A stretch of 64,000 nucleotides of DNA from contig NC_092677.1 in NCBI RefSeq assembly GCF_964355755.1, positions 27,622,101-27,686,100 of the forward strand, given 5' to 3'. The first letter of the stretch is position 1. Every line of letters begins with the position of its first letter. The notes beneath the pieces are model-generated. The model was not told the DNA's origin. It saw only the letters and a list, made by a program, of their open reading frames with translations, and searched no databases. This document shows positions 3,076 to 51,903 of this stretch, piece after piece. The position numbers and the translations under genes were made by a program. Origin of the DNA: Antedon mediterranea (lineage: Eukaryota > Echinodermata > Crinoidea > Comatulida > Antedonidae).

Positions 3076-6000
3076 TCAGGTGTCAATTGAAAAGAGATCA
3101 CCAGCAGATGGTAGCGGTGGCAGGCCACCCGTCACATCTGGTAGAAGGGTTAGGTCCGGTAACTTCTGAATATGACTTTTTAATTCTTTACGCACTGTCG
3201 TTACCTTGTTTAATTTTTGTTTGTATTCCTAAGAAAAATTAAAAAAAACTGTTTAAAATTAAATATTCAAAAGGAGATAAACAATGAAAATGTATGCAGT
3301 ATGAGTTTTATGATGAGCTATAAAACAACAATATATAGTTACTGTATTTTATTATTTAATTTACTGAATGATAATAATAATACAAACACAATAATAAAAG
3401 AAACAATGGTATAAAACGGATATACTATCAAGGGGACACCTTCCTGACCCAACAGTGTCCCTTAAATAGGGATGTCTCTTGCATAGGGGTTGGCCATAAA
3501 ACGTATTTCGTTTGCTTCTCGGGAAAATATCATCAAAGGAGGGCTTCCATAAAAATTTAAAAATCATTTAAAATTAAATATTCAAAAGGAGAAAAACAAT
3601 GAAAATGTATGCAGTATGAGTTTTATGATGAGCTATAAAACAACAATATATAGTTACTGTATTTTATTATTTAATTTACTGAATGGTGTTATAATACAGG
3701 TAATAATAATAATAAAAACACAATAAATGCAACAATGGTATACTATCAAGGGGATACCTTCCTGACCCAACAGTGTCCCTTAAATAGGGATGTCTCTTGC
3801 ATAGGGGTTGGCCATAAAACGTATTTCGTTTGCTTCTCGGGAAAATGTCATCAAAGGAGGGCTTCCATAAAAATTTAAAAATCATTTAAAATTAAATATT
3901 CAAAAGGAGAAAAACAATGAAAATGTATGCAGTATGAGTTTTATGATGAGCTATAAAACAACAATATATAGTTACTGTATTTTATTATTTAATTTACTGA
4001 ATGGTGTTATAATACAGGTAATAATAATAATAAAAACACAATAAATGCAACAATGGTATACTATCAAGGGGATACCTTCGTGACCCAACAGTGTCCCTTA
4101 ATAGGTATGTCTCTTGCATAGGAGTTGGATATAAAACATATTTTGTTTGCTTCTCGGGAAAGTGTCGTCTTAATAGAGGTGACACAAAGGAGGGGTTACA
4201 CAGCTTCTTACCTCTAATTTTTTCTCAGCCGCTGCAAGTTGGTCTTTTTGTCCCAATCTGTAATCTCTCAGCATTTTAAGAACCCTTTTTCTTTCATCCA
4301 TCTCTAAGTCTAATCTTCCGTTATAGTCTGTTAACATTGAAACAGCGTCATTCACAAGTGCTGATAACTTGTCTGCTGCATCTTTGTCTAAAAACAAAAA
4401 TCAAATCAGAAAATTAAAAAACATTATTTTTTTTTTAAATTACAAGCAGTTACATAACAGTCATTTTATACTCTGTATTATTTGTATGGCATTTTATGAA
4501 ATAAATTTTTGTTGAATTTAAATTGCTAGGGTGAATTTTGAACCTTGTTTGAGGAGGGCAGGAAATTTAACTTGAGTATTTGATAATAGCACTTTCTTTC
4601 TCTAAGCACACGCCAGCTTAAACAGTTGTTGACCATTATAAAGACACATTTCTTACTATAAATATTTAAATATGCACATTTAGATGTGACGGTTACCTTT
4701 AATTCTTTCTAACAGGCTGACATCCTGTACTTCTGGGGGTAGCTTGGCTATTTTTTCTCGGACAGCTGCATCACTAGAAGCAGAGTGTTCCAAATCTCTT
4801 AAGCATTGCACCAAAACCTCAGTCTAAGAAGTCAATCAAAACGATTATAAATGTATTTTGGGAATAAATTAAAATGCAGGTATCTCAATATTTCTAGATA
4901 TAAACATAACAAATTGGTTACAAAAAGTAAACAAAAATATTATTATAATTTTAAGTAAAACTATCACTGTTTAGTCTGCTTATGATTCAAAATTTTCTCT
5001 GAATAAATTTATCACTATGCAAAGAGAAAAGACCATATGGCATAGGTTGTATTGTGTTAAATATTTAATTTATTCTGTCTTTATACCGAATGACACTACA
5101 GCATTGATTTCCAAAGTGGTTCAGTAGTAGTAATTTCCAGGCATAGAAGAAATTATATTTCAGTGATCAAATTTACATTTATATACAATTCCTTATATCA
5201 CAATACAAACTATGGCAATATATTTAGTAAAGCTCAGTCTACACTATCAAATATGGTATTGATATGACATATCAATCATGTTCATATATTTAGTAAAGCT
5301 CTGTCTACACTATCAAATATTGTATTGATATGACATATTATGTTCATATATGGGCACATCACATTTTTGTTGCATAAGGTTTGATAGTGTATTAGTAAGG
5401 GGCCGTTAAAACATATTCGCCATCGGGTGTCCCAAATGACGGGCTCTACTGTATTTGATAATGGATTATTATTGATACCAACCTCTGGCATCTCCCCTGG
5501 TATATGTGGCTCTTCTTCATTTAATGGATTATTATTGATACCAACCTCTGGCATCTCCCCTGGTATATGTGGCTCTTCTTCATTTAATGGATTATTATTG
5601 ATACCAACCTCTGGCATCTCCCCTGGTATATGTGGCTCTTCTTCATTTAATGGATTATTATTGATACCAACCTCTGGCATCTCCCCTGGTATATGTGGCT
5701 CTTCTTCATTTAATGGATTATTATTGATACCAACCTCTGGCATCTCCCCTGGTATATGTGGCTCTTCTTCATTTAATGGATTATTATTGATACCAACCTC
5801 TGGCATCTCCCCTGGTATATGTGGCTCTTCTTCATTTAATGGATTATTATTGATACCAACCTCTGGCATCTCCCCTGGTATATGTGGCTCTTCTTCATTT
5901 AATGGATTATTATTGATACCAACCTCTGGCATCTCCCCTGGTATATGTGGCTCTTCTTCATTTAATGGATTATTATTGATACCAACCTCTGGCATCTCCC

Positions 6001-9000
6001 CTGGTATATGTGGCTCTTCTTCATTTAATGGATTATTATTGATACCAACCTCTGGCATCTCCCCTGGTATATGTGGCTCTTCTTCATTTAATGGATTATT
6101 ATTGATACCAACCTCTGGCATCTCCCCTGGTATATGTGGCTCTTCTTCATTTAATGGATTATTATTGATACCAACCTCTGGCATCTCCCCTGGTATATGT
6201 GGCTCTTCTTCATTTAATGGATTATTATTGATACCAACCTCTGGCATCTCCCCTGGTATATGTGGCTCTTCTTCATTTAATGGATTATTATTGATACCAA
6301 CCTCTGGCATCTCCCCTGGTATATGTGGCTCTTCTTCATTTAATGGATTATTATTGATACCAACCTCTGGCATCTCCCCTGGTATATGTGGCTCTTCTTC
6401 ATTTAATGGATTATTATTGATACCAACCTCTGGCATCTCCCCTGGTATATGTGGCTCTTCTTCATTTAATGGATTATTATTGATACCAACCTCTGGCATC
6501 TCCCCTGGTATATGTGGCTCTTCTTCATTTAATGGATTATTATTGATACCAACCTCTGGCATCTCCCCTGGTATATGTGGCTCTTCTTCATTTAATGGAT
6601 TATTATTGATACCAACCTCTGGCATCTCCCCTGGTATATGTGGCTCTTCTTCATTTAATGGATTATTATTGATACCAACCTCTGGCATCTCCCCTGGTAT
6701 ATGTGGCTCTTCTTCATTTAATGGATTATTATTGATACCAACCTCTGGCATCTCCCCTGGTATATGTGGCTCTTCTTCATTTAATGGATTATTATTGATA
6801 CCAACCTCTGGCATCTCCCCTGGTATATGTGGCTCTTCTTCATTTAATGGATTATTATTGATACCAACCTCTGGCATCTCCCCTGGTATATGTGGCTCTT
6901 CTTCATTTAATGGATTATTATTGATACCAACCTCTGGCATCTCCCCTGGTATATGTGGCTCTTCTTCATTTAATGGATTATTATTGATACCAACCTCTGG
7001 CATCTCCCCTGGTATATGTGGCTCTTCTTCATTTAATGGATTATTATTGATACCAACCTCTGGCATCTCCCCTGGTATATGTGGCTCTTCTTCATTTAAT
7101 GGATTATTATTGATACCAACCTCTGGCATCTCCCCTGGTATATGTGGCTCTTCTTCATTTAATGGATTATTATTGATACCAACCTCTGGCATCTCCCCTG
7201 GTATATGTGGCTCTTCTTCATTTAATGGATTATTATTGATACAAACCTCTGGCATCTCCCCTGGTATATGTGGCTCTTCTTCATTTAATGGATTATTATT
7301 GATACCAACCTCTGGCATCTCCCCTGGTATATGTGGCTCTTCTTCATTTAATGGATTATTATTGATACCAACCTCTGGCATCTCCCCTGGTATATGTGGC
7401 TCTTCTTCATTTAATGGATTATTATTGATACCAACCTCTGGCATCTCCCCTGGTATATGTGGCTCTTCTTCATTTAATGGATTATTATTGATACAAACCT
7501 CTGGCATCTCCCCTGGTATATGTGGCTCTTCTTCATTTAATGGATTATTATTGATACCAACCTCTGGCATCTCCCCTGGTATATGTGGCTCTTCTTCATT
7601 TAATGGATTATTATTGATACAAACCTCTGGCATCTCCCCTGGTATATGTGGCTCTTCTTCATTTAATGGATTATTATTGATACCAACCTCTGGCATCTCC
7701 CCTGGTATATGTGGCTCTTCTTCATTTAATGGATTATTATTGATACCAACCTCTGGCATCTCCCCTGGTATATGTGGCTCTTCTTCATTTAATGGATTAT
7801 TATTGATACCAACCTCTGGCATCTCCCCTGGTATATGTGGCTCTTCTTCATTTAATGGATTATTATTGATACCAACCTCTGGCATCTCCCCTGGTATATG
7901 TGGCTCTTCTTCATTTAATGGATTATTATTGATACCAACCTCTGGCATCTCCCCTGGTATATGTGGCTCTTCTTCATTTAATGGATTATTATTGATACCA
8001 ACCTCTGGCATCTCCCCTGGTATATGTGGCTCTTCTTCATTTAATGGATTATTATTGATACCAACCTCTGGCATCTCCCCTGGTATATGTGGCTCTTCTT
8101 CATTTAATGGATTATTATTGATACCAACCTCTGGCATCTCCCCTGGTATATGTGGCTCTTCTTCATTTAATGGATTATTATTGATACCAACCTCTGGCAT
8201 CTCCCCTGGTATATGTGGCTCTTCTTCATTTAATGGATTATTATTGATACCAACCTCTGGCATCTCCCCTGGTATATGTGGCTCTTCTTCATTTAATGGA
8301 TTATTATTGATACCAACCTCTGGCATCTCCCCTGGTATATGTGGCTCTTCTTCATTTAATGGATTATTAATGATACCAACCTCTGGCATCTCCCCTGGTA
8401 TATGTGGCTCTTCTTCATTTAATGGATTATTATTGATACCAACCTCTGGCATCTCCCCTGGTATATGTGGCTCTTCTTCATTTAATGGATTATTATTGAT
8501 ACCAACCTCTGGCATCTCCCCTGGTATATGTGGCTCTTCTTCATTTAATGGATTATTAATGATACCAACCTCTGGCATCTCCCCTGGTATATGTGGCTCT
8601 TCTTCATTTAATGGATTATTATTGATACCAACCTCTGGCATCTCCCCTGGTATATGTGGCTCTTCTTCATTTAATGGATTATTATTGATACCAACCTCTG
8701 GCATCTCCCCTGGTATATGTGGCTCTTCTTCATTTAATGGATTATTATTGATACCAACCTCTGGCATCTCCCCTGGTATATGTGGCTCTTCTTCATTTAA
8801 TGGATTATTATTGATACCAACCTCTGGCATCTCCCCTGGTATATGTGGCTCTTCTTCATTTAATGGATTATTATTGATACCAACCTCTGGCATCTCCCCT
8901 GGTATATGTGGCTCTTCTTCATTTAATGGATTATTAATGATACCAACCTCTGGCATCTCCCCTGGTATATGTGGCTCTTCTTCATTTAATGGATTATTAT

Positions 9001-11061
9001 TGATACCAACCTCTGGCATCTCCCCTGGTATATGTGGCTCTTCTTCATTTAATGGATTATTATTGATACCAACCTCTGGCATCTCCCCTGGTATATGTGG
9101 CTCTTCTTCATTTAATGGATTATTATTGATACCAACCTCTGGCATCTCCCCTGGTATATGTGGCTCTTCTTCATTTAATGGATTATTATTGATACCAACC
9201 TCTGGCATCTCCCCTGGTATATGTGGCTCTTCTTCATTTAATGGATTATTATTGATACCAACCTCTGGCATCTCCCCTGGTATATGTGGCTCTTCTTCAT
9301 TTAATGGATTATTATTGATACCAACCTCTGGCATCTCCCCTGGTATATGTGGCTCTTCTTCATTTAATGGATTATTATTGATACCAACCTCTGGCATCTC
9401 CCCTGGTATATGTGGCTCTTCTTCATTTAATTCTTTTAGCAGTTCTTGCATTGTTTTCTGCATTTGTTCTGCCGGATCAGTCTTGGATTTCTTTGGTGAT
9501 GAGGGTTCAAATTCATTTGGTGGAGAGTCTAAAGGAGTGTTGCCTGGTGTAACTAAACATCAATAAAACAAAGCAAGAGATTTACGAACACAACATATTA
9601 ATGAAGCTGATAAGGCACTAGAGAGGAGTGTTTGTTTGGGATGTGTGTCAGGCATGAGAGGAGTGTAAATAATGATGTCAAATTACTGCTGTAATAAAAA
9701 TAATGTTGTACAAATTATGATAATGAGGTTAAATAAAGTTAAGTTTGTGATCAATTGTTAAGTATTTTCATCAAACCAAGGCAATTTAACAACAGGACAC
9801 TGAGCTCGCCTGTCAAGATAGGAACTCATAACAGTCCTTTGATTTTATGTCTGGCTGCGACAAATACCAACAGTACTGTACTTTGGACATATTCCCTGTG
9901 GCGCGGTGTCTGTTGATCGTGTCACAGCCTCTGATAAACCCTTCTCCGGAGCTTAGCGTCCTGTTGCCTTGATCAAACTCCTTAGGTTCTTACCAAATGT
10001 TGCCTGCAATTGCTTAATGAGAGTAGCCTCAAACACACCTCTCTCAGCCCAAATTGTACATACTCGTTCCATTGACTTTTTGGTTTTCTCGTCTGTAACA
10101 CTACAAAAGTATCAAACCCATTTATTGAGTAAGCAACATACAGTACTTGGGGAAGTGAAACAATAATATAAATAGTGAATATTGTATTAATGATTCAAAA
10201 ATGTACCGAATTGGCTTCTTTTACTTACCTCACTACATGCATAAATGCACTTTCCATAACATTTTGAAACTCCTTGGTGAATTCCTGGCCTTTCTTCTTA
10301 CTGTTCTGAACAATATCATTAGCCAAGTAAACAAACAGAAGCTTTCTGCTTATTTTTGCTATAAAAAAAACCAATATCAATGTATTTTATTGATGAAGAA
10401 ACTGGGTACTTTAAAGTGCACACGGGCCAACTGTGTACACTGGACCTACAGTTTATAGTCCTTATTCGAGAAGACTTGTTGCACCTCCAGAACTAGGAAC
10501 GAACCCGGACGCCAATATTGTTTTGTTTGTTGGCTCTTTTAGATACGGTAAACAGAGCCCCCTTGTATGTATGATGCAACATGGATGCAGTATGCACATT
10601 TTTTCTCCCTTTTTGAGTTAAACACCACCTGTTTTATTTTTTGTATAGTTTATTATTTTTTTTTAAAGATGGATCTAGCTAGGCCTAAAACAACTTTTGC
10701 TTTCTAGACATATAGCCTAACTAACATAATACATCATTAAAATCTTCGTATACAAAAGGCTTAGGCTAGCTAGCCTAGTTGTTGAGATTAAGGGTTCGCT
10801 TCTTTTTGTTTATCCTCTCTCTGAACTGAAACCAAGCGAAGAAGGAGGTCAACAACATGTTTGATATGACTTTTTAGGCTGGCTGCTAAAACTAAAACGA
10901 TAGTACTCACTTTTCTGAAGCTCTGCATGCCAAACATTGACAATAGATTTAGCATGTTTTCTGTGATGAATAAGCCACAAAGAAAGTGTTTGGATGCTTT
11001 GTTGTGAATTGCTTAGGCTACCTAATTTCTCTTTTAATACACTTTCTGAAAACGTAGACAT
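3076..11061 (-). CDS. RPRD1: RPRD1A/B orthologue, Pol II CTD-interacting protein (7 exons)
   Basis: Regulation of nuclear pre-mRNA domain-containing protein 1. The family binds the phosphorylated C-terminal repeat of RNA polymerase II and recruits CTD phosphatase in the nucleus. Exons on the minus strand: 10911-11061, 10229-10358, 9994-10100, exon 4 from 9552 down into the 63-bp array, 4697-4823, 4212-4387, 3076-3228. The phases fit at every junction. Exons 1-3 encode the CTD-interaction domain (MSTFSESVLKEKL, then QTLSLWLIHHRKHAKSIV, then YLANDIVQNSKKKGQEF). Exons 5-7 encode the coiled-coil tail (LPPEVQDVSLLERI, DYNGRLDLEMDERKR, VRKELKSHIQKLPDLTLLP, PLPSAGDLFS). Exon 4 is a charged linker ending in the repeat. 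If exon 4 ends in the first repeat unit (CCAGAG then GTTGGT, at 9389) the protein is 335 residues, against 326 for human RPRD1B. The exact end of exon 4 is uncertain. Confidence 0.94.
3245..4195. repeat. ~315-bp tandem repeat, 3 copies, in RPRD1 intron 6
   Basis: Three head-to-tail copies start near 3258, 3571 and 3889, each with AAATTAAATATTCAAAAGGA. A shared block in each reads CCTGACCCAACAGTGTCCCT then GGGATGTCTCTTGCATAGG (one base differs in copy 3). The first two copies are nearly identical and the third diverges towards its end. The array fills most of the intron between exons 6 and 7 of RPRD1. The short minus-strand open frames in each copy have no recognisable domain. Confidence 0.85.
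4824..5458. other. RPRD1 intron 4 proper, with MITE-1 at its 5' end
   Basis: AT-rich intron sequence between the repeat array and exon 5. It carries a nested pair of MITE-1 copies close to the array and otherwise nothing I recognise. The acceptor for exon 5 is TTCTTAG at 4824-4830 on the minus strand. Confidence 0.7.
5228..5392. mobile_element. MITE-1 copies c (one partial, one complete)
   Basis: A partial copy starts at AGCTCAGTCTACACTATC (about 5231). A second, complete one starts at AGCTCTGTCTACACTATC (about 5298) and ends with TTTGATAGTGT at about 5390, with GGGCACATCAC as its inner arm. The left copy appears interrupted by the right one. The minus-strand frame leaving the 63-bp array reads straight into this element, which argues that the frame beyond 5459 is not real coding sequence. 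Confidence 0.8.
5459..9427 (-). repeat. 63-bp tandem repeat, 63 copies, at exon 4/intron 4 of RPRD1
   Basis: Exactly 63 units of exactly 63 bp (3969 bp), read from 12 residues of unique coding sequence before it and 58 residues of frame after it. The minus strand keeps RPRD1's frame and would encode a 21-residue unit that begins NEEEPHIPGEMPEVG and ends NNNPL. The only variants I found are three units with a C for the G after EV (near 7242, 7494, 7620) and three units with I for the first N (near 8369, 8558, 8936). That is about six changes in 3969 bp, so expansion or homogenisation is very recent. Each unit contains CCAGAG|GTTGGT, a moderate 5' splice consensus in phase 0, the phase exon 5 needs. 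The plus strand is also open throughout. Confidence 0.97.
9585..9700 (+). pseudogene. fragment of POLR2C last exon and 3' UTR inside RPRD1 intron 3
   Basis: The stretch AGAGATTTACGAACACAACA then TTAATGAAGCT matches the end of the POLR2C coding sequence at 14625 (AGTGATTTACAAACACAACA then TAGTCATGAAGCT). It continues into 3' UTR sequence: GAGTGTTTGTTTGGGATGTG then TCAGGCATGAGAGG. It is a short, decayed copy with no promoter or splice sites. It lies about 4.9 kb from its parent, on the same strand. Confidence 0.8.
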
Positions 11062-27044: not shown

Positions 27045-29495
27045 TTAAAAAATTTGCACACGATTATTTCCAAAGTCCACAACAATAATATAGCCATCTG
27101 GAGAGACACATATCCCTGAGGGTCGATCGAGTTCACCGAGACCGGAACCTGGAGATCCAAATCTGCACAAGAACGTACCGTTGGGTTGAAACACTTGAAT
27201 ACGATGATTACGAGAATCTGCCACGATGATGTTGCCCTCTTGATCCACACAAACACCTTGAGGACGGAGGAACTGGCCGATGTTGCTTCCTTCCGAGCCG
27301 AGAAAACGAGCAGACTGAAAATCTGGAAAATCAGGATTTATCACGAGCAAACGATGATTATTGAAGTCGGTTACAATAATTTGACCTTCAGGGTTAAACG
27401 CCACACCACGAGGAGAATCAAAATGTTTCCATAGAGCACCATCGAATCCGTACTTATTAATAAATGTCCCGTCGTTATTGAAAATTTGAATACGGTGGTT
27501 GCGGGTGTCGGACACCAGGATTTTTCCGTCACGGTTACAAGCAGTGTCCCATGGGTAGTTAAACTGTCCATTTTTGCTTCCTTTCTCTCCAAATTTAAAC
27601 AAAAACTGTCCTTCGAAAGTGAATACTTGAATTCGATGGTTATCTTTATCGGCAACAATAATCTTCTCTTCAGGATCAATGGCTACTCCAGCTGGTCTAT
27701 CAAATTGACCGTTTCTTGATCCAGCCGTACCGAATTTTCGCAAAAACGTACCATCTGGATTGAAAATCTGAATACGGTTGTTGCTACGATCAGCAATAAT
27801 CAGATATCCATCTTTGTTTGTTGTGATTCCCCACGGCCGGCAGAGTTCACCATCCCCTTCACCTTCACAGCCAAATTCTTTTTGGACCACGCCAATATTT
27901 TGATAACTGCGACCCATTCTCACATTAACGGTGAAAGGACTCTCACGAATATGTCTCCCTCTTATTGTAACAGACACACTATGTGGCCCTTCTGTTTGCA
28001 GCCGGTAACTTATTAGATAAGTTCCATTTTCACGATCTAGAACATCTGTGGGGTATATTCCTCCGTCGGGGCCTTGTAGAACCACAACAACCGGTTCACC
28101 GCCTGTGAACGAGGCTTCGCTGTTATGATCTCTGGCGTGAACGAGAAATGTGCTGAGTTTACCAAGTAACGCTCGTTTTAAGCCATCACCGGTAGCAATG
28201 CAATTTGGAGCGTAAGCACTGCTGCTGACAAACCCTAGGGAGGATATAGCAGTCTGCAAGGCTCCATCTGGTGGTGTAAACAAGATTGTATCATCCTCGT
28301 GAGGCTCAAGTAGATTTCGTAGACCTCTCATCGTTTGCATTTGCTTCACCATTCGATCTTTAGCTTTCAGGATTGCAATGTCATTTCCACTTTGCATAGC
28401 GCCCTCAACTGATTTGATAGAATCCAATATTTTATCCAACCCTTGGCGTAATTCTTCACCTTGAAAATTCAATGCTTTTTCTTTAACTTTTCGAATTTTA
28501 TCAACTTTTAGTAACAAATCTCGTTGCCGTTCTTCCAATGCTGTCATGTGTCTCTTAATAGTGGTTTTTACTTCGTTAACGATCATTTGCGAATGCATCT
28601 CAACTCTGTCCGCCATACTTTGTGCCGAGTTAATACTGTCCTCCAAAGTCCTGATGCTGTTGTTTGCTTCCATTAGTAACCGTTGCGTTATCACTTTGCT
28701 GTTTTGCACCGCGTCTTGAAGATACACACAATTGTGACCTCTGTGTTCTTGCATAGTGCATTCCCGGCATATTGCCATCGAGCAGGTATCACAATAAAGA
28801 CGGACAACTTCATTTGTGTGGACGTCGCAATAACTAACAGTTTTGTCAAAATTCGGCTGATGGATGATGGAATTATAATTTGGCGAGTGTACGGGGCTTT
28901 GGTTTTGTTGGCCGTGATCGTTAAAATAATCATCTAAACGACAAATATTGTGATCTTTTGTCATTCGTACCCGTCGGTGAGCGTGCACGCATCGATCGCA
29001 AAGCTGTTCTTGGCATTGCCGACAAATGCAAGTTGCGAGCTGTTTATCCTCGCAGGATTTACAAAGATGGAAATCATTTATATCCTTATCATCTTCTTGT
29101 CCAACAACACCTAGAATATTATTGAGTATGAGATTTGATGTTAAAGAATTAAGTCCCAGTTCACCCAAAGGTGTTTCATGAGAACACAGTGGACATTGGA
29201 TTCTATCTGGTTCCCCTAGCCTTTGTGTTAAACAATGTTTGCAAAACGTATGCATACACGGCAAAACCCTCACATCATACACGTTGTGGAACTGTTCTAG
29301 GCAAATACAACACATCTGCTCTCCTCCCAGCATACGATCCTTCGACGACCCACCAAAAGCGGCCATTATTTGGCGATTGGGATTTAAACATGAGTGTGTC
29401 TTTCCTACATCAAAAGTATCTTTCTGTATAAATGCTGGTATCCACTCACTTTCGACTTGCTTGCTTGTTTCAGAGCCTGTTGAGGTGCAAAACAT
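27045..29495 (-). CDS. TRIM71: TRIM71/LIN-41 orthologue, RING-B-box-filamin-NHL protein
   Basis: A TRIM-NHL E3 ubiquitin ligase and RNA-binding repressor of developmental timing, acting in the cytoplasm. The coding part is one exon of 816 residues (human 868). RING finger at about 62-104 (CCICLEQF, CMHTFCKHC, CPLC), first B-box at 142-185 (CKSCED, CDRCVHAHRRVRMTKDH), second at 221-258 (CDVHTNEVVRLYCDTC), coiled coil to about 400, filamin/Ig repeat at about 440-535 (GPDGGIYPTDV, NGTYLISYR, ESPFTVNV), then six NHL repeats to the end (LCRPWGI, DRPAGVA, FNYPWDT, DSPRGVA, LRPQGV, DRPSGI). The last residues NNRVQIF parallel the vertebrate NNRILVF end. An in-frame TAA lies just upstream of the first ATG. 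A second ATG at 29366 (MAAFGG) has the better start context and lies only 18 codons before the RING, so the first 43 residues may be untranslated. Confidence 0.96.
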   Translation of the reverse strand: MFCTSTGSETSKQVESEWIPAFIQKDTFDVGKTHSCLNPNRQIMAAFGGSSKDRMLGGEQMCCICLEQFHNVYDVRVLPCMHTFCKHCLTQRLGEPDRIQCPLCSHETPLGELGLNSLTSNLILNNILGVVGQEDDKDINDFHLCKSCEDKQLATCICRQCQEQLCDRCVHAHRRVRMTKDHNICRLDDYFNDHGQQNQSPVHSPNYNSIIHQPNFDKTVSYCDVHTNEVVRLYCDTCSMAICRECTMQEHRGHNCVYLQDAVQNSKVITQRLLMEANNSIRTLEDSINSAQSMADRVEMHSQMIVNEVKTTIKRHMTALEERQRDLLLKVDKIRKVKEKALNFQGEELRQGLDKILDSIKSVEGAMQSGNDIAILKAKDRMVKQMQTMRGLRNLLEPHEDDTILFTPPDGALQTAISSLGFVSSSAYAPNCIATGDGLKRALLGKLSTFLVHARDHNSEASFTGGEPVVVVLQGPDGGIYPTDVLDRENGTYLISYRLQTEGPHSVSVTIRGRHIRESPFTVNVRMGRSYQNIGVVQKEFGCEGEGDGELCRPWGITTNKDGYLIIADRSNNRIQIFNPDGTFLRKFGTAGSRNGQFDRPAGVAIDPEEKIIVADKDNHRIQVFTFEGQFLFKFGEKGSKNGQFNYPWDTACNRDGKILVSDTRNHRIQIFNNDGTFINKYGFDGALWKHFDSPRGVAFNPEGQIIVTDFNNHRLLVINPDFPDFQSARFLGSEGSNIGQFLRPQGVCVDQEGNIIVADSRNHRIQVFQPNGTFLCRFGSPGSGLGELDRPSGICVSPDGYIIVVDFGNNRVQIF

Positions 29496-32151
29496 GTCTT
29501 AAACCAGGCCACCGTACTCACCCCTTTTCTTGCATTGAAAGCACTTCTGCCAGTAAAAAATTCGTACAAATGAAAGTGAAGATTGGCGCAGTCGTAGTTT
29601 GCGTTTTGGTAGACTCTTATCCAGTTAGTCCCATAGAAACAACTAAATCAAAAACAGCATTCAGTCACTCGAAAATAAAGCGATGTGCCAATTTACATTT
29701 AATTTACATGTGCAATGTTCATTTCATTGAAATTATATAGATTCGTTATTGCAAATTGATAAGACGCTGATGTTTTAATAATGTAATCACCTAAAACGGC
29801 TGACACGCGTCCAAAGCCTTACGTAACCAGGTCACAGCCGTCTCTGGTTTTAGGCGGTCAATGACCTTTGAAAAGTCCTATTAGAATATTTTAACTATAA
29901 CAAAGATTGGTAGGATTCTTTAAAACAGAAAAAAAATAAGGTAAAATGGTGAATTAGCAATACGTTGGTTGCTATATAATTTAATACACGCCTTTCCGGT
30001 ACAGCACCTACCGACACGCGCGCGAGGGATACGGTTACGCATACGCGGTACGCGCTTCCGATTACAGAAAAAGGTAAAGTTTCATCAAATCATGATGGCG
30101 CCCTACACAATTTTATTTATAAATACATCCATCAATTTTACTTTGTTTTGCTTTTTTTCGCGTGCATGTTTGTTTTCTGGGTCATTGACTTTTAAATGTC
30201 ACTTAATGAACTTGGCTACGCAACATAAACTGTTAGGGGCGCGCCCAGAGAGTCAACTTTAAACGTGCGAGTACGCAGGAGACACCATTTATTGTTGTTT
30301 GTCACACTGCCAAATTAAGCAAGTGTGTGGCGACGAAAATGTGTTACATTTTTTTTTTGTAGCTGACATTATCGCTGCTGTTGAACCGTTGAAAAGTTTA
30401 GAAGGGTGAGATATCTTTCCCAAAGATAACGTTTTTCTTTTAGAGGGAACGTCGTCCTAAGTAACGCCTACGCACTTACAGATAATTGATACGGCATTTT
30501 TTATATGCGTTGTTCAAGGGGATTAGAACAAAGTCCGTTAGGCACATAATCAATTTATTTACAGGAGAAAAAAACCCCTCAAATCCTTATTTTGTTTACA
30601 TCAATGTTTCAAAGGCGAACGTAAAAAAAACTTTATTTATTTGATATTTATTATTTGGGTTTCATGATATTTTGGATTTGTTTGCTTAATTTTTACTACA
30701 CATTATTATTCTGTCCGATCGTATTGAGACAATATACAATTGTTTCAGGTATTGAAGGTGTGATAAATACTTTTTTAATTAAAAGTTTGCACAAAAATAG
30801 AGGGCGGCAAACAGAAAATTTGAGCGCCCAGTTTTTAGCACGTTATAAATCTGTCTGAAAAAACTGTGTATTATTATTGGGATTCTAGGCCTTTGTAGAA
30901 TATTCAACTGATATATAACATTTTATGTAAACATGAAAATAAAAAAACACATACTACACAAAACCGATTATTAATATGTTCTATTTAATTATCAAACCCA
31001 ATATTTAACAAAATATAATCATGTTTTAAAACTATATATCAATCACAACAATGAATTCTTTGATTAGTCAACAATTAAAAAATAAATCGGATTAAAAACA
31101 GTTGTTTTCAATGTGAACACAATTTGGTAAAATTGAATGCAAAACTGAAGATTAATAACTTAACTACCTCTTCATAGTCCTGATATCTCTTACTGAGGCA
31201 TGATGGGAAACTGAAAGCCATACTAATTTATTATCTTACCCTATTGTATATAATATATTTGAATATAAAATCATATAATATTTCTGTACAATTATATAAA
31301 ATGTTCTTGAGTATTGAAAGACTGTAATGAAAGGTCGATGTGATGTGACTGTAATACACTACACTGTCATTTGGTACATTTCATTTTCCTAAAAAGAAAT
31401 TTATTATCTAGCGCATTTATATTTGTAATGCAAGTTTAGCTACCAAGTTTGTTACAAAATTAAAGTTGGTCTTTAAAATAAATCAAAGTTTACGTCTTAC
31501 TGTTGCTTAAAATATGTAAAAAATGTCTTTCAAAAAGATATAGTTATCTTGATTTTTAAAATTATTATATTTGCAATATTGAGGTAGCTTAAAGATCTTA
31601 AACCATTGCTGTGAAATTAGCATATTGGCACATCACTGAATTATAGTCACAATTACAATGTTATTACAAAAATTAGACATTGAAGGTTTAAAATTAGACA
31701 AACTACACACTAATGAATAAGCAGCTTATATAGATAGGTAGCTGGACTTAGCTTAACACAGAATCAAGGTGTCTCCATTATATGCTGCACACTGTAAGAC
31801 AGTACTGTTATTCCATAATTGGCATTGAACATCCACAGTAAATGGGATTTGTATACAGGCCAATGTTAATGACAGAGCACAATAAAATTAGTAATTTTTT
31901 CAAAGAAAAATGTAACGGTACCAGCTAAAAAATGTAAATTAACAAATCAACATACAGAATTGATACCTAAGAAATTATATAAAATAAGAGATACTAAAAA
32001 AACATTCATAAAATTGTTATAATTTAGACATTTGGTGGGTTTTTGGAATCTGCTTTGAGACATGTTTGAACATTTATTCCAAATTAGTACTGAATGCATA
32101 AAATAGCTTTCCTTAAAATTTCATTTCAACAATTGGTTGGTAAATTTAAGA
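29496..32151. other. TRIM71 5' flank and intergenic region
   Basis: No coding exon seen. A strong 5' splice consensus (GGGTGAGTACG on the minus strand, about 29515-29525) lies just upstream of the TRIM71 ATG and may mark an intron in the 5' UTR. The stretch 30000-30060 is unusually rich in CG dinucleotides (ACACGCGCGCGAGG, TACGCGGTACGCGC), as expected near a promoter. The right part, up to 32151, must contain the 3' UTR of the first GDAP1 copy. Confidence 0.45.

Positions 32152-45899: not shown

Positions 45900-51903
<6,004 letters not shown>

Follow-up and report, generated by a model that had tools for sequence, protein, structure and literature searches.

The RPRD1 gene of the crinoid Antedon mediterranea contains a tandem array of 63 nearly identical 63-bp units, which we consider, on balance, to be a minisatellite repeating the exon-4/intron-4 boundary and carrying 63 nearly identical, frame-neutral candidate 5' splice sites. 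This preference follows from weighing the evidence on splice donors above that on reading frame and base composition, which is mixed; on the same grounds, a fully exonic array was judged possible but rather unlikely. All coordinates are positions in the window, i.e., the whole stretch of 64,000 nt that was analyzed, and array units are numbered along its plus strand.

The RPRD1 gene

Seven exons of RPRD1 can be read on the minus strand, all of them intact and consistent in phase:

10911..11061, minus strand, RPRD1 exon 1 (start codon to donor)
10229..10358, minus strand, RPRD1 exon 2 (CID)
9994..10100, minus strand, RPRD1 exon 3 (CID)
9389..9552, minus strand, RPRD1 exon 4 (linker), to the first in-unit donor
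4697..4823, minus strand, RPRD1 exon 5 (start of the CREPT domain; enters in phase 0)
4212..4387, minus strand, RPRD1 exon 6 (CREPT coiled coil)
3076..3228, minus strand, RPRD1 exon 7, with the stop codon

The product has an N-terminal CTD-interacting domain (Pfam CID, 6.4e-37; PDB 4fu3, 3.9e-47) and a C-terminal CREPT coiled coil (Pfam CREPT, 1.8e-59; PDB 4nad, 3.8e-56), its best PDB matches being RPRD1B and RPRD1A. These matches support the identification of the host gene as RPRD1 in the original prediction, whose claim of an in-frame array start inside exon 4 also holds, as the exon-4 frame continues into the array without a stop. The CID, the linker, and the CREPT coiled coil are present and intact, as in RPRD1A/RPRD1B (p15RS/CREPT). 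A search of the genome for a second RPRD1 (CREPT) gene found none, the host gene being single-copy, and no RPRD1 relatives were found among viral contigs. A further tandem array, with 2.9 copies of a 318-bp unit, occupies positions 3252-4161 in intron 6; hence, RPRD1 holds two tandem arrays.

Structure of the array

In the TRF analysis of the window, the outstanding array was located at 5459-9431 (period 63, 63.1 copies, 99% match, 0% indels). Cutting it unit by unit yielded exactly 63 head-to-tail copies of 63 bp, without indels:

5459..9427, minus strand, 63 x 63-bp tandem array (TRF and unit-by-unit comparison)

On the minus strand, the unit reads AATGAAGAAGAGCCACATATACCAGGGGAGATGCCAGAG / GTTGGTATCAATAATAATCCATTA and is translated as NEEEPHIPGEMPE / VGINNNPL, the slash here and below marking a candidate donor. 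The units are identical in 57 cases out of 63, and each of the remaining six has one substitution: C>A at unit position 21 in units 29, 33, and 35, and T>A at unit position 14 in units 47, 50, and 56. In the gene direction, these are of two kinds only, Gly to Cys and Asn to Ile, and they cluster locally, in units 29-35 and 47-56. The occurrence of two mutations, each in three nearby units, points to copying of units after the mutations had arisen, and the six substitutions are two mutations times three, not six independent events. On average, two units differ at 0.0029 per site. This is less than the heterozygosity of many marine invertebrates; therefore, the units are either young or well homogenized.

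Chance origin of the array is impossible as an explanation. In its highly similar head-to-tail units, with a length in the range of 10-100 bp, it resembles a minisatellite or VNTR. The earlier claims of 63 near-identical copies at these positions, of about six substitutions, and of a homogeneity implying recent expansion or exchange are thus borne out by the exact count, the two kinds of substitutions found three times each, and the sharing of both mutations among nearby units. That the copy number also varies between individuals, as proposed there, is a reasonable expectation, the analysis covering a single assembly. At the sensitivity of the search, the 63-bp unit is found at one locus only in the assembly (354.4 Mb, 18 contigs), and no copies of the unit or of the 3' flank of the array were found elsewhere in it. 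In RNA and DNA folding, the stability of the repeat was not above that of shuffled sequences; a small hairpin of 8 pairs around the in-unit GT is equalled by 2.6% of shuffles and was given no weight.

Candidate splice donors of exon 4

Exon 5 opens with ACT GAG (TEVL...), with TAG directly before it. As it starts in phase 0 directly after this TAG, a phase-0 donor is needed for exon 4, and the candidates considered are the following:

9387..9388, minus strand, GT of the candidate donor GAG/GTTGGT in the first unit, at the 5' end of the array in the gene direction (donor scoring)
5481..5482, minus strand, the corresponding candidate GT of the last unit (phase)
5448..5449, minus strand, GT of ACA/GTAGAG, the only phase-0 candidate directly after the array (donor scoring)

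Donors were scored against a set of 24 from the same genome, comprising those of CCT and myosin genes and the five other RPRD1 donors; neighboring CCT and myosin exons were joined only if GT/AG and the exact reading length left a single solution, the donor context being unused. The model is small, and its result is the ranking of sites, not the absolute score. GAG/GTTGGT, which recurs every 63 bp through the array, scores 0.25; two of the 24 true donors are lower, and 10% of random GTs reach this value. The form GAG/GTTTGT, found in three units, scores 1.0. The post-array site ACA/GTAGAG scores -5.9, below all 24 donors, a value reached by 61% of random GTs, and the next phase-0 candidate past the array, at 5362, scores -1.2 and lies inside MITE-like sequence. 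Neither GTT at positions +1 to +3 nor G at +4 occurs in the 18 CCT donors or in the other RPRD1 donors. The in-unit donor is weak by any standard, yet within the range of the 24 genome donors.

Base composition changes at the in-unit site, from 49% GC before it to 25% after it, the averages for RPRD1 being 39% in exons and 31% in introns; a GC content as low as 25% was found in 8% of coding vs. 32% of non-coding comparison 24-mers. The 39 bases preceding the in-unit site clearly resemble coding sequence (7.8 bits). For the 24 bases after it, the codon score is non-discriminating, and the density ratio of 1.5 is toward coding.

From the exon-4 body, the minus-strand frame continues open across all 63 units and repeats the peptide NEEEPHIPGEMPEVGINNNPL, which is acidic (pI about 4) and contains no Ser, Thr, or Tyr. 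Openness is weak evidence of coding, as a second of the six unit frames is also open: on the plus strand it runs for 1,392 codons (5388-9566), opposite RPRD1. A plus-strand gene on the array was rejected, this frame being a mere by-product of a unit length divisible by three; a mimic of the Pol II CTD was also rejected, as the unit lacks Ser, Thr, and Tyr. Single-sequence AlphaFold2 gave the repeats without order (pLDDT about 40), although such a model is poor evidence of disorder, and predicted a confident helix within the exon-4 body, at residues 26-43 of the stretch that was modelled. The original prediction regarded the array as coding sequence of exon 4 and the unit as encoding an acidic 21-residue peptide. 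The in-frame start, the open frame, and the acidity stand; coding and translation up to the end of the array are rather unlikely, since no good donor follows the array and a better one is present in its first unit.

Origin of the array

Under the boundary model that we favor, the founding 63-bp segment would have comprised the final 39 bases of exon 4 with its 5' splice site, together with 24 bases from the start of intron 4. ATTA closes the unit and is also found immediately ahead of the first unit; thus, the founding segment is bordered by a 4-bp direct repeat:

9428..9431, minus strand, ATTA in the 5' flank of the array, matching the final four bases of the unit (microhomology bordering the founding segment)

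This microhomology probably drove the first doubling, after which the array probably grew by unequal exchange or slippage. Microhomology-driven doubling followed by unequal exchange would be an ordinary minisatellite route. Splicing at the first donor would yield an ordinary RPRD1 of 335 aa, the remaining array being removed as an intron, while splicing at later donors would add 21 residues per unit, with the frame kept, to the acidic, probably disordered linker that joins the CTD-binding domain to the coiled coil. Both the founding event and the donor in use are what we infer from the sequence. Since the 63 nearly equal donors share one phase, the frame is kept whichever of them is used, and, as 63 is divisible by three and all units are free of stops, a change in the copy number is harmless to the frame either way.

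The linker of the 335-aa form has 47 residues, close to the 40 residues of human CREPT (26 in p15RS; PMC13297466), which supports the boundary model. What counts against it is the peptide VGINNNPL after the in-unit site, open in frame in a unit divisible by three. The chance of such a combination is about 0.2 (0.60 for an open frame x 1/3), or roughly one in five, so that coding is favored about five to one.

It could instead be that the whole array is exonic, so that an exon 4 of 4.1 kb ends at ACA/GTAGAG or at some other unrecognized donor and RPRD1 has 1,648 aa, a reading that we hold as tentative and the less probable of the two. With similar reservations, the message could continue from the array through TCAAATACA into exon 5, and, in the protein, 63 x 21 residues of acidic, disordered linker could separate the coiled coil from the CTD-binding domain. 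In that case, the repeats would contribute 1,323 residues, and the distance between the domains would be about 1,360 residues. The frame open in all 63 units and the unit length are as expected from an exonic array, and its ancestral exon with one unit (...NNNPLSNT/TEVL) would have encoded a linker of 58 residues, not far from that of human CREPT (PMC13297466). The last 24 bases of the unit lean slightly toward coding, as noted above, and the AlphaFold2 model without order in the repeats suggests that a long linker need not misfold. The donors argue against it: ACA/GTAGAG is typical of random GTs, and the alternative at 5362 belongs to MITE-like sequence. Moreover, a 4.1-kb internal exon or a 1,300-residue insertion would be unusual in the RPRD1 family.

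Creation of a new intron by the array, with the AGGT of one unit spliced to the AG of a later unit, most of the array removed, and the final unit kept as an exon, is extremely unlikely. Every unit does hold AGGT, the proto-splice site of the tandem-duplication model (PMC4974935), and an exonic 24-nt tandem repeat has turned intronic in fission yeasts (PMC3629103). However, intron gain of this kind requires that the repeats supply both a usable GT and a usable AG, and here a donor is present without an acceptor-like AG: all AGs of the unit lack a pyrimidine tract, six out of seven score below a typical random AG, the best is matched by a third of random AGs, and the one adjoining the GT scores worst. 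The absence of an acceptor-like AG makes a new intron within the array improbable, and a donor past the last unit would still be required. An error of the assembly in the array length, the true array being much shorter or longer and collapsed or inflated, is also quite improbable. Such errors are known to arise in tandem repeats (PMC6868369), and here the units are almost all alike; but the array, at about 4 kb, is below the length of ordinary long reads, the 354 Mb are assembled into only 18 contigs of chromosome size, and the two variants serve as markers of different places along the array.

Comparison with known systems

The closest parallels to the boundary model come from fission yeasts, in which exonic 24-nt tandem repeats have become intronic (SPOG_01682, SOCG_00815; PMC3629103). 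There, too, a short repeat of a length divisible by three lies in a coding gene with a possible splice signal in each unit, and the exon/intron limit falls within the array. In the yeast genes, however, both splice sites are held to be in the repeats, and the units are few and non-identical (PMC3629103), whereas the RPRD1 array is followed by an ordinary exon-5 acceptor and its 63 nearly identical units carry the donor only. Intron gain by tandem duplication (PMC4974935) likewise duplicates a segment with a splice signal; there, a single duplication adds an intron, while RPRD1 presumably has an old intron of which the 5' splice site was multiplied. Neither case (PMC3629103; PMC4974935) multiplies the donor of an existing intron to such an extent. 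In human RPRD1 proteins the linker has 26-40 residues (PMC13297466), while here the exon encoding the linker leads into an array of 4 kb. A literature search of partial coverage found nothing relevant on repeats in RPRD1.

Coding VNTRs such as those of MUC1 or CEL have homogenized units of a length divisible by three, lie wholly within an exon, and belong to genes for secreted proteins. The RPRD1 array shares with them the unit length divisible by three, the homogenization, and the expected variation in number, but it probably straddles a splice site, and its gene encodes a nuclear Pol II regulator.

Genomic neighborhood

A MITE-like element with the ends ...ACACTATCAAA / TTTGATAGTGT... recurs in the window, including RPRD1 intron 4 (about 5233-5381), and downstream of RPRD1 such an element contains ten copies of a 21-bp unit (2102-2316). 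A second 63-bp array, of 3.1 copies (48996-49188), has an open plus-strand frame of 21 residues per unit with a stop shortly after, and is possibly the last exon of another gene. A long uninterrupted frame at 27045-29498 encodes a TRIM-NHL-like protein (RING, B-box, filamin, and NHL repeats). Elsewhere in the genome, about twenty matches to one myosin-head exon are spread over 5.5 Mb of a single chromosome (G000:C3, 19.6-25.1 Mb; L058-L064, L066, L067, L069-L072). Among 13 copies compared, the exon is 96-100% identical and the longer matching stretch about 94%; one copy has a stop. This pattern suggests that a myosin gene has recently expanded in a dispersed manner.

Significance

Under either reading, exonic or boundary, the near-perfect agreement of the units indicates that the expansion within this coding gene was very recent or is still under way. 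With splicing at the first donor, the array would amount to a harmless minisatellite in an intron. We consider it doubtful, although conceivable, that, in this regulator of Pol II and transcription termination, splice-site choice and copy number jointly set the length of the linker, giving proteins of 335 to about 1,650 residues that bridge the CTD in a graded manner within one population. If the array is exonic, a conserved Pol II regulator tolerates an acidic insertion of 1,300 residues between two working domains, which would show how little the RPRD1 linker is constrained. If the donor lies in the unit, the gene would offer a natural system for examining spliceosome choice when numerous identical 5' splice sites compete and each of them keeps the frame.
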